Positions 3,043 through 5,352 of a stretch of 38,050 nucleotides of DNA are shown here, piece by piece. Source of the stretch: Deltaproteobacteria bacterium (lineage in GTDB: Bacteria; Desulfobacterota; Syntrophia; Syntrophales; UBA8958); assembly GCA_029561465.1 (NCBI GenBank), contig JAKQIZ010000037.1, positions 1 to 38,050 of the forward strand. Direction: 5' to 3'. The notes under the pieces were generated by a model. It worked only from the letters and a program-made list of their open reading frames with translations. It had not been told where the DNA came from and made no database searches. A program made the translations under genes and the position numbers. Every line of letters begins with the position of its first letter. Position 1 is the first letter of the stretch.

Positions 3043-5352
3043 GTGAAACCACCCTCTTCCCATATTTTAGCCACGATAGGAAATACGCCGCTGGTGGAGA
3101 TTCGCCACCTCAGCGACAATCCGCAGGTGCGTATCTTCGCCAAAATGGAATGTTTCAATCCCGGAGGCTCCATCAAGGATCGGACAGCCCTGGCCATGAT
3201 CGAGGGTGCCGAACGGCGGGGAGAATTAACGAAAGACAAGGTGATTCTCGAGGCGACAAGCGGCAATACGGGTATTGGCCTAGCCCTGGTGGCCGCCGCC
3301 AAGGGCTATCGCCTCTGCCTTACCATGTCGGAGGCGGCCAGCGAGGAGCGGAAGAAGATCCTCCGGGCCATGGGGGCCGAACTTCACTTCACCCCCGCCA
3401 ATCTTGGCACCGACGGCGCCATCGAGGCGGCCTATCTAATGATGAGGGAAAATCCCGACCGATATTTCGGCACGGACCAGTTCAACAATCCCGATAATGT
3501 CCGGGCTCACTATGAGGGAACGGCGGAGGAGATCTGGCGCCAAACCGACGGTCAGGTTACGGCCGTCGTCGTTGCCCTGGGGACCACAGGAACGGCCATG
3601 GGGCTGTCGCGGCGCCTCAAGGAATACAACCCGGAGGTCCGGATCATCGGCGTGGAACCTTATTTGCAACACAAACTGCAAGGTCTAAAGAACATGAAGG
3701 AATCCTATCGTCCCGGGATATTCGACCGGAATCTCCTGGACGAGAAGGTCAACATTCTCGATGAGGATGCCTTCGAAACAGCCCGGCGACTGGCCAGAGA
3801 AGAGGGGCTCCTGGTGGGGATGAGTTCCGGCGCCGCCATGCATGTAGGCCTCCGGAAGGCCCGGGAAATGACGAGCGGGGTCCTGGTGGTAATCTTTCCC
3901 GACAGCGGCGAGCGCTATCTGAGTACGGATCTGTTCACCGAAAAGGGTGAAATGACGTTGCGGCTGTACAACACCCTGACCAGGCAGAAGCAGTTCTTCA
4001 AGCCCCTGCGCTCCGAAGAGGTACGGATCTATTCCTGTGGTCCCACCGTCCATGACGTGCCCCATATCGGCAGCTACCGCCGTTTCGTCGTCTCCGATCT
4101 GCTCAGGAGATATTTGGAGTACAAGGGCTGCCGAGTCCGCCATGTAACCAATATCGTCGATCTCGCCGACCGATCGATCCGGGGCGCCGAGCGGACCGGC
4201 GCGGATCTCGTTACGTACACGGCCCGGTGCACAGAGGCTTTCCTTAGGGATATCGGCAAGTTGAACATCAAAGAAGACGAGATGTACCCCCGGGCGAGCG
4301 AACATGTGGACGACATGATCCGCATGGTGGAAAAGCTGGTGGGGAAGGGCTATGCCTATGAAAAACTCCGGTCCGTTTATTTCGACATCTCCAAGTTCAA
4401 CGAATACGGGAGTCTGTCCAATATCGACCTGAGGAAGGTTCAGCACGGCCGGACTAGTGATCTGGACGACTATGAGAAGGACAGCCCGGTGGATTTCACC
4501 CTCCTGAAAAGGTCCACCCTGAGTGAACTAAAGAAGGGTATTTACTATAAGACCCGCTGGGGAAGCGTCCGGCCCAGCTGGCACCTCGAATGTGCCGCCA
4601 TTGCCATGAAATTTCTTGGTGAGGCATTTGATATCCATGCCAGTGGCGCCGATATCACCTTCCCCCACTGCGAAAATGTCCTGGCCATCGGCAAGGCGTC
4701 CACCGGCCGGGGCATGGCCAACTACTGGCTGAGCACGGAACTGGTGATGATCGACGGCAAGAAGATGTCCCGGTCGCTGGGCAATGTTCTGACCATGGAG
4801 GATCTGGAAAGAAAGGGTTATGAAGGTCGGGAGATACGCTTCTTTCTTCTGGGTGCCCACTATCGCAAGCCCCTGAATTTTTCCTGGGGTGCTCTGGAGA
4901 CCGCCAAAAACACCGTCCGGAAGCTGAACCGTTTCGTCCAGCGCTTACTCCGTTTCCGCCCCGGTATGGGTTGTCCCGATACGGACCAGTGGATCTATGA
5001 CGTCCGGCACAGCTTTATCGATGCCATGGATGACGACCTGAATATTTCGGGTGCCCTGGCCTCCCTCTTCGACTTTATCAACAAAGTCAGCCCGCCCCTC
5101 GAACAGGGATGCTTCACCCTCGAGGAAAGGGACCGCCTCCTCGATGCGCTCCAGGGACTGGACGGGGTGCTGGGGGTCATGACCTTTGCGGAGGAACGGA
5201 TCGACGGGGAGGTTCTGACGTTGGTGGAAAAACGGGCGGCACTGCGCAAGGAGATGCGGTGGGCGGAGGCCGACGCCGTCCGTGCCGAGCTTGCCGCTTT
5301 GGGGATCGAAGTCTATGACACCCCTCAGGGCAGTTTCTGGCGGCTCCGTTGA
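3043..5352 (+). CDS. cysS: Fused cysteine synthase (CysK/CysM type) and cysteinyl-tRNA synthetase
   Basis: One 769-residue frame joins two complete enzymes. Residues 1-300 are a PLP-dependent cysteine synthase: GGSIKDR with PLP lysine K45, substrate loop TSGNTG (72-77), phosphate-binding GTTGT (180-184) and SSGA (261-264). Residues 304-769 are a class I cysteinyl-tRNA synthetase: CGPTVHD with C332, HIGS (341-344) in place of HIGH, WHLEC with C517, FPHCEN (540-545), KMSRS (574-578) and the family's YDTPQGSFWR-type C terminus. Each half has normal family length, with a linker of only a few residues. It could make cysteine and load it onto tRNA-Cys in one polypeptide. The fourth zinc ligand of E. 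coli CysRS is replaced here (V546). The start is GTG 3043 with AAGG 12 bases upstream. The fusion is read directly; substrate channelling is inference. Confidence 0.93.
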   Translation: MKPPSSHILATIGNTPLVEIRHLSDNPQVRIFAKMECFNPGGSIKDRTALAMIEGAERRGELTKDKVILEATSGNTGIGLALVAAAKGYRLCLTMSEAASEERKKILRAMGAELHFTPANLGTDGAIEAAYLMMRENPDRYFGTDQFNNPDNVRAHYEGTAEEIWRQTDGQVTAVVVALGTTGTAMGLSRRLKEYNPEVRIIGVEPYLQHKLQGLKNMKESYRPGIFDRNLLDEKVNILDEDAFETARRLAREEGLLVGMSSGAAMHVGLRKAREMTSGVLVVIFPDSGERYLSTDLFTEKGEMTLRLYNTLTRQKQFFKPLRSEEVRIYSCGPTVHDVPHIGSYRRFVVSDLLRRYLEYKGCRVRHVTNIVDLADRSIRGAERTGADLVTYTARCTEAFLRDIGKLNIKEDEMYPRASEHVDDMIRMVEKLVGKGYAYEKLRSVYFDISKFNEYGSLSNIDLRKVQHGRTSDLDDYEKDSPVDFTLLKRSTLSELKKGIYYKTRWGSVRPSWHLECAAIAMKFLGEAFDIHASGADITFPHCENVLAIGKASTGRGMANYWLSTELVMIDGKKMSRSLGNVLTMEDLERKGYEGREIRFFLLGAHYRKPLNFSWGALETAKNTVRKLNRFVQRLLRFRPGMGCPDTDQWIYDVRHSFIDAMDDDLNISGALASLFDFINKVSPPLEQGCFTLEERDRLLDALQGLDGVLGVMTFAEERIDGEVLTLVEKRAALRKEMRWAEADAVRAELAALGIEVYDTPQGSFWRLR

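Follow-up and report, generated by a model that had tools for sequence, protein, structure and literature searches.

A cysteine synthase fused to a second cysteinyl-tRNA synthetase in Desulfobacterota, with a possible role for the synthetase half as a tRNA-Cys-binding control domain

We analyzed a 38,050-nucleotide stretch of DNA from a Deltaproteobacteria bacterium of the phylum Desulfobacterota (contig JAKQIZ010000037.1, positions 1 to 38,050; hereafter the window), in which a single gene encodes a pyridoxal 5'-phosphate (PLP) cysteine synthase joined to a cysteinyl-tRNA synthetase (CysRS). The reading we favor, to which we give a probability of about 0.5, is that the protein is a cysteine synthase of the CysM type, using O-phosphoserine, with a CysRS-derived domain that would bind tRNA-Cys and control the synthase. 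Four features seen directly in the sequences lead to this reading of a synthetase turned regulator: the CysRS half is redundant, its catalytic motifs have been lost repeatedly, the residues with which it would read tRNA are kept, and it is covalently linked to the synthase. From these we infer binding of tRNA-Cys and an effect of that binding on the synthase.

The gene is a single open frame at 3043-5352 on the plus strand that begins with GTG, encodes 769 amino acids (aa) and has no internal stops. Pfam matched PALP to residues 10-287 (E 6e-72), tRNA-synt_1e to residues 319-622 (E 1e-88), DALR_2 to 658-712 and CysS_C to 721-767, and the protein reached 361.8 bits with the NCBIfam model cysKM, above its cut-off of 344.15, and 395.3 bits with cysS, above its cut-off of 340. 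No single NCBIfam model among the matches listed (the best 25 of 49 for the window protein) covered both halves. Two complete folds are thus truly fused in frame, as a sequence-only reading of the window had proposed, and every motif named there was present: K45, TSGNTG (72-77), GTTGT (180-184), C332, HIGS (341-344), WHLEC and KMSRS (574-578). By its PALP fold, its motifs and the cysKM cut-off, the protein is a PLP cysteine synthase. The CysRS half has HIGS where the canonical motif is HIGH, and FPHCENV where E. coli CysRS has FPHHENE, which places Val at the position of Glu238; its KMSKS equivalent (KMSRS) and anticodon-binding domain are present, and it is not the only CysRS of its genome. 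The features of the gene are as follows.

3043..5352, plus strand: fused cysteine synthase-CysRS gene, 769 aa (open frame, Pfam, NCBIfam; in 37/41 genomes)
3070..3903, plus strand: PALP (cysteine synthase) domain, residues 10-287 (Pfam)
3175-3177, plus strand: K45, Schiff-base Lys of the PALP fold
3256-3273, plus strand: TSGNTG, PALP motif
3580-3594, plus strand: GTTGT, PALP motif
3688..3690, plus strand: Lys216, in alignment opposite the LRNM Arg of M. tuberculosis CysM
3937..3957, plus strand: putative linker of ~7 residues (sequence reading only)
3997..4908, plus strand: CysRS catalytic domain, residues 319-622 (Pfam; structure model compared with 1u0b_B)
4036..4038, plus strand: Cys332, equivalent to E. 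coli Cys28, present (alignment)
4063..4083, plus strand: HIGS-Y-RR, a degenerate HIGH motif that contains Arg347 (E. coli position 43) (alignment)
4591..4593, plus strand: Cys517, equivalent to E. coli Cys209, present (alignment)
4660..4680, plus strand: FPHCENV, with His542 (His234) kept, Cys at position 235 and Val at position 238 (alignment)
4762..4776, plus strand: KMSRS loop, the KMSKS equivalent, intact in the window (alignment)
5014..5178, plus strand: DALR_2, residues 658-712 (Pfam)
5203..5343, plus strand: anticodon-binding domain CysS_C (Pfam and alignment)

An AlphaFold2 (AF2) model of the protein, built from a 45-row alignment (A1) in which CysS_C was found in 43 of the 45 rows, had a mean predicted local distance difference test score (pLDDT) of 87.1 and a predicted template modeling score (pTM) of 0.69. 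Residues 305-769 of the model matched E. coli CysRS from its complex with tRNACys (1u0b_B; Z 49.7, root-mean-square deviation (rmsd) 2.9, 444 aligned), and the N-terminal half aligned to cysteine synthases, including M. tuberculosis CysM (3dki_A, Z 40.9). At the domain junction (window 3944-3957), AAAAGGGTGAA is followed by an in-frame ATG, a candidate internal start that could give a free CysRS half.

The fusion is real and is not confined to one genome. Genome G002 has the same frame, with 91% identity, and the fusion was present in 37 of 41 genomes (the window's own and 40 relatives), which excludes the stop or frameshift at the junction that the sequence-only reading had named as a danger; close relatives are fused, and not always split into two genes. 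The recurrence of the same frame in many genomes also rules out a sequencing or assembly artefact. Among the 37, two copies are split by contig ends (G016, G018) and one has stops (G007); the four genomes lacking the fusion are G019, G022, G035 and G038. Across the phylum, a match running from one half into the other was found in at least 150 of 395 genomes, spanning 47 family codes (a lower bound, counted by hand among the matches listed), so that the fusion is spread through a large part of the phylum. Titles of the named records include Deltaproteobacteria, Syntrophus, Smithella, Desulfobulbaceae and Thermodesulfobacteriota. A metagenome-assembled genome labelled Syntrophus aciditrophicus (L019 / L120) has in-frame stops in its copy. 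The statement that no example has been characterised agrees with our literature searches, in which the open-licence texts covered, including partial texts of PMC5424206, PMC2922099, PMC9437257, PMC7609411 and PMC8762117, made no mention of the fusion.

We looked for separate copies of the two genes, as had been suggested, and in the window's own genome both enzymes are also encoded on their own, CysRS at G000:C98:3094-4581 and cysteine synthase at G000:C191:16635-17546. We also examined 72 fusion genomes, hand-picked from the phylum survey mostly for completeness (all >=90%) and hence not random; one of them, G063, was included on purpose because it had shown a single match. A second CysRS match at E<=1e-40 was present in 72/72, and the separate copy outscored the fused one in 71/72. 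The separate copies scored 525-605 bits in 69 genomes and 448 and 432 bits in G143 and G198, which have another CysRS type; the one in G063 is a 100-aa fragment. Fused copies scored about 240-460 bits. Because all 72 genomes have a separate CysRS (71 intact, 1 fragment), the fused CysRS is, as judged from these matches, a paralogue and a redundant second copy. That it might be the sole CysRS of the cell is ruled out, both for the window's own genome and for the 72.

Several minor observations concern these additional copies. In G143:C11 and G198:C1 (L203, L207) the usual stand-alone CysRS is replaced by one of the HHTNE type, as in some Patescibacteria. Four genomes (G310, G329, G402, G172) have a third CysRS-like frame of ~420-480 aa that matches only model positions 1-410 and may be the CysRS* of the SelC* system. 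A further CysRS match in G060 (G060:C1:594025-595398, 436 bits) lies in a 742-aa open frame outside that genome's cysKM matches, and is perhaps another CysRS fusion. A search of 18 genomes with one tRNA-Cys probe revealed no dedicated second tRNA-Cys: tRNA-Cys (GCA) was confirmed once each in 11 and the probe matched nothing in the other 7, further short weak matches not having been scanned.

To follow the catalytic residues we compared 97 nonredundant fused proteins (106, less 5 near-identical ones and less L109, L115, L117 and L119, whose chosen frame lacked SGNTG); a first comparison had left out 10 of 85 sequences that were shorter than 700 aa. Residue numbers are those of E. coli CysRS, whose zinc ligands we take to be C28, C209, H234 and E238. 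The second histidine of HIGH, H40, was kept in only 5/97 fused proteins and H37 in 64/97. The KMSKS core (K266-x-S268-K/R269) was kept in 53/97 and lost in 44/97, the zinc trio C28, C209 and H234 was kept in 84/97, and E238 in 53/97. H37 and the core were both missing in 32/97, and 9/97 had neither trio nor core. All 40 stand-alone CysRS kept these residues, except for H40 and S268, which were each found in 38. The core changed state at least 13 times on the tree, with the fused architecture persisting. Simple channelling of cysteine, which the sequence-only reading had offered as a function, is hardly one kept across the family, given the loss of the KMSKS core, the HIGH histidines or the zinc ligands in many members; for the window's own copy, channelling into Cys-tRNA is still possible. 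That copy has C28, C209 and H234, with Val at 238 and a new Cys at 235. Cys235 occurs with Val238 in 27/97 and represents one change on the tree. With Cys and Val at these positions, a zinc ligand may have moved in the window's lineage and not been lost. At E. coli position 43, which is Arg347 of the window, all 97 fused proteins have Arg, where most stand-alone CysRS have S or A.

The anticodon-binding domain was kept throughout the family. R423 was found in 96/96 fused proteins, R427 in 94/96, D436 and R439 in 96/96 each and D451 in 95/95, and position 432 was aromatic (W/F/Y) in 96/96. In CysS_C of the window these correspond to Arg731 (R423), Arg735 (R427), Trp740 (W432), Asp744 (D436), Arg747 (R439) and Asp759 (D451). 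In the E. coli complex, four of these residues (R423, R427, W432 and D436) make contact with G34 of the tRNA (PMC12684709, partial text). All nine proteins lacking both trio and core retained R423, R427, D436, R439 and D451. Measured against 37 of the 40 stand-alone CysRS (L126, which is cut, and L203 and L207, of the other type, were left out), mean conservation in the nine was 0.91 over 10 anticodon-domain positions and 0.59 over 90 positions elsewhere; the value of 0.29 for the catalytic motifs is partly so by construction, as the nine were chosen by loss of trio and core. One decayed member, L063, was still modeled as a CysRS fold (pLDDT 83.9, pTM 0.58; against 1u0b_B, Z 49.0, rmsd 5.2, 441 aligned).

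The synthase half has remained intact and appears to serve a housekeeping role. K45 was present in 96/97 fused proteins (1 gap), and SGNTG and G180/T181/G183/T184 in 97/97, SGNTG having also been an entry filter. In 34/72 fusion genomes, among them the single-contig genomes G068, G077, G104, G138, G139, G240, G249 and G363, the fused PALP was the sole cysKM match at E<=1e-60, a threshold that leaves out weaker PALP proteins. This has a bearing on annotation: curated models give the same protein two names, cysteine synthase and cysteine--tRNA ligase, in genomes of which 34/72 have no other strong cysteine synthase match and 71/72 have an intact separate CysRS.

Whether a genome has a second synthase is closely tied to serine acetyltransferase. 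A cysE match (E<=1e-20) was found in 0/34 fused-only genomes and in 36/38 with an extra cysKM (Fisher 3e-18), the association held in 8/8 independent pairs drawn from a 34-genome tree (sign test p 0.008), and 25/36 cysE matches had the extra cysKM no more than 1 kb away. By these counts serine acetyltransferase travels with the extra synthase. Full-length SerA was present in 34/34 fused-only genomes, and three close relatives of the window (G002, G008, G010) had neither an extra cysK nor a cysE match. Since it is the extra synthase that co-occurs with serine acetyltransferase, the fused synthase probably uses O-phosphoserine. Lys216, found in 97/97 fused proteins, aligns with the Arg of LRNM in M. 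tuberculosis CysM (placed with a self-composed probe), presumably R220, which we take to bind phosphate. E. coli and Salmonella CysM likewise have Arg at this position, so the residue is not decisive for substrate.

With regard to origin, 84 fused CysRS formed one group (SH-like approximate likelihood ratio test (SH-aLRT) 97) in a tree of 123 CysRS sequences with motif columns removed, and the stand-alone CysRS of fusion genomes fell outside it. This tree, a quick one with midpoint drawing and no bootstrap, indicates that the fusion arose once. Two linked cysS genes from Patescibacteria (L061, L062) adjoined the fused group (SH-aLRT 99) and, like the fused-only genomes, theirs had no cysE match (0/2). 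They differ from the fusion in that the two halves are separate, adjoining cysK and cysS genes with slightly overlapping reading frames, in that the CysRS motifs are canonical apart from HIGN, and in that this cysS is the only match above the CysRS cut-off in its genome. The gene pair may be the source of the fusion or a later split. In the 112 genomes of the class of G425, a Patescibacteria genome, no single match covered both halves at E<=1e-70, and only G425 itself has both halves, adjacent. At L061, from a Nealsonbacteria genome, the cysK-cysS pair is immediately preceded by a tRNA-Cys (GCA) gene (L061:5917-5989). The loci of six unfused near relatives (L065, L066, L067, L069, L071, L072) contained no CysRS, and the closest unfused PALP relatives (L065:6001-6951, L066:277-1227) have a Cys-rich tail (YCNERC...C...C and similar) at the place of CysRS.

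We propose that a CysRS copy was joined once to a housekeeping synthase making cysteine from sulfide and O-phosphoserine, and that the joined half would then have shifted from translation enzyme to control domain. In this scheme tRNA-Cys would dock on the anticodon domain of the CysRS-derived half, and synthase activity would be set by the state of that half: whether the tRNA is free or charged and, possibly, whether cysteine or ATP occupies the old pocket. Uncharged tRNA-Cys would act as a demand signal upon which cysteine is made. Binding of tRNA-Cys by the CysRS half is somewhat better than an even bet, and for allosteric control of the synthase by that half we put the chances at about even. 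The narrower proposal, in which the charging state of tRNA-Cys directly gates the synthase by way of the fused pseudo-synthetase, is tentative. Where the motifs are intact, as in the window's lineage, the domain may still be able to form Cys-AMP or Cys-tRNA. If the proposal is true, much of Desulfobacterota would adjust amino-acid supply to the needs of translation at the level of the protein, independently of transcriptional control, and many sulfur-cycle and syntrophic bacteria would use a tRNA-Cys-reading enzyme for making cysteine from O-phosphoserine. Cysteine would also gain a counterpart of HisZ-HisG, and bacteria a synthetase-like domain that senses tRNA within a metabolic enzyme.

A number of observations weigh against this proposal. 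The anticodon-domain residues were equally conserved in stand-alone CysRS and may owe their retention to folding; the region around W458, at the very C terminus, was missing or altered in nine sequences (L162, L166, L169, L171, L177, L181, L183, L184, L187); and the domain arrangement is uncertain in the AF2 models, as reflected in pTM values of 0.69 (window) and 0.58 (L063). The old pocket is not simply dead: R42, H206 and H234 of the active site were found in 97/97 fused proteins, W205 in 94 and N237 in 96. Because these residues persist and Arg43 is specific to the fused copies, something may still be bound there. As to the substrate, G166 and G168 have an extra synthase match without cysE (a 187-aa piece in G168), and besides an additional cysK the genome of the window itself yielded a cysE-like match of 169 bits. 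That match falls below the curated cut-off of 210.65 bits, as do the cysE matches in 36/37 fusion genomes that have one (the window's own included); only G020 passes, the others scoring ~144-172 bits, and the naming of such sub-cut-off matches as cysE is likely correct. Nor is absence of cysE unique to fused-only genomes: among 40 non-fused genomes of the phylum, picked by hand, 8 had no match and 32 did, 15 of them above the cut-off. Finally, the trio and the core (C28, C209, H234 and KxS(K/R)) were both kept in 49/97 fused proteins, the window and 48 others.

These 49 proteins also speak for a true bifunctional enzyme that makes cysteine, loads it onto tRNA-Cys and hands it over directly, with the second CysRS being housekeeping or condition-specific. 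Some class I enzymes tolerate other letters at the last position of HIGH, and the Patescibacteria pair, with its linked cysS as sole match over the CysRS cut-off and, in L061, its tRNA-Cys gene directly upstream, fits such an enzyme as well. We nevertheless consider it unlikely, given the higher-scoring separate CysRS in all but one of the 72 genomes and the repeated changes of the KMSKS core under a constant architecture. Mean pairwise identity of the CysRS region is also lower among the 97 fused proteins (0.521) than among 37 stand-alone ones (0.621), in sets that differ in make-up.

Quite unlikely is a CysRS half that gives the synthase no more than a structural lid or a platform for oligomerisation. 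The intact fold modeled for the motif-less L063 would suit it, as would the many positions (mean 0.59) that decayed proteins keep outside the motifs and the anticodon domain, but preferential conservation of residues matching the G34 contacts is not expected of a pure scaffold.

There is only a slim chance that the CysRS half works in the manner of MshC, activating cysteine and passing it to a small thiol, peptide or carrier. MshC is itself a CysRS paralogue (PMC9437257, partial text), the window protein scored 201 bits to the MshC model, and part of the active site is kept. That score is far under the NCBIfam equivalog cut-off of 485.1, however, the protein retains an anticodon-binding domain with its contact residues, no gene beside the fusion is common to the 52 loci compared, and 44/97 proteins have no KMSKS core. 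Production of cysteine persulfide by the CysRS-type half, fed by the PLP half, would recall the CysRS-linked polysulfidation reportedly found by Akaike in 2017, but leaves unexplained why anticodon contacts outlast catalytic motifs and is most improbable.

Among known systems, M. tuberculosis CysM, an O-phosphoserine sulfhydrylase (3dki/3dwg), resembles the synthase half in its PALP fold (Z 40.9) and in its LRNM, with which LKNM of the fusion aligns. It has no CysRS domain, and it takes sulfur from a protein thiocarboxylate. For the CysRS half, HisZ may be the closest functional parallel, by analogy only: HisRS is a class II and CysRS a class I enzyme, and the two are not homologous. In the HisZ-HisG short-form ATP phosphoribosyltransferase, a synthetase-derived, adenylation-free protein controls the enzyme of the cognate amino acid (PMC9437257, PMC9734150, partial texts); HisZ is a separate subunit that mediates histidine inhibition, whereas here the domain is joined and its tRNA-reading part kept. 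SepRS-SepCysS also couples cysteine synthesis from O-phosphoserine to tRNA-Cys (PMC5424206, partial text), but the conversion occurs on tRNA and by other enzymes, unlike the PLP sulfhydrylase and CysRS of the fusion. CysRS* of Desulfobacterales, bacteria related to those with the fusion, is likewise a non-canonical second CysRS (PMC7609411, partial text); it charges SelC* and lacks the anticodon domain that the fusion retains. Synthetase paralogues in amino-acid synthesis are thus known relatives of the kind, and the cysteine synthase-CysRS fusion would be a further variant.

In the window, the fusion lies in the order rlmB, a PilC/GspF-like gene, DUF1178, the fusion, a tRNA cluster, nusG, rplK and rplA, and this neighborhood recurs at the loci of close relatives. 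A constant operon partner was ruled out, as no gene recurs in all 52 loci compared, a comparison in which many flanks were short and, at seven loci, a crude open reading frame picker mistook an antisense frame for the fusion. At locus L024 (L024:8485-8921), an ARAGORN tmRNA call overlaps tRNA-Tyr and tRNA-Gly and is probably false. In 12 other loci (L031, L036, L037, L042, L044, L046-L049, L051, L052, L054) the next gene after the fusion encodes what we take to be a MurJ-like flippase, and the stop-to-stop frames of the two genes often overlap.

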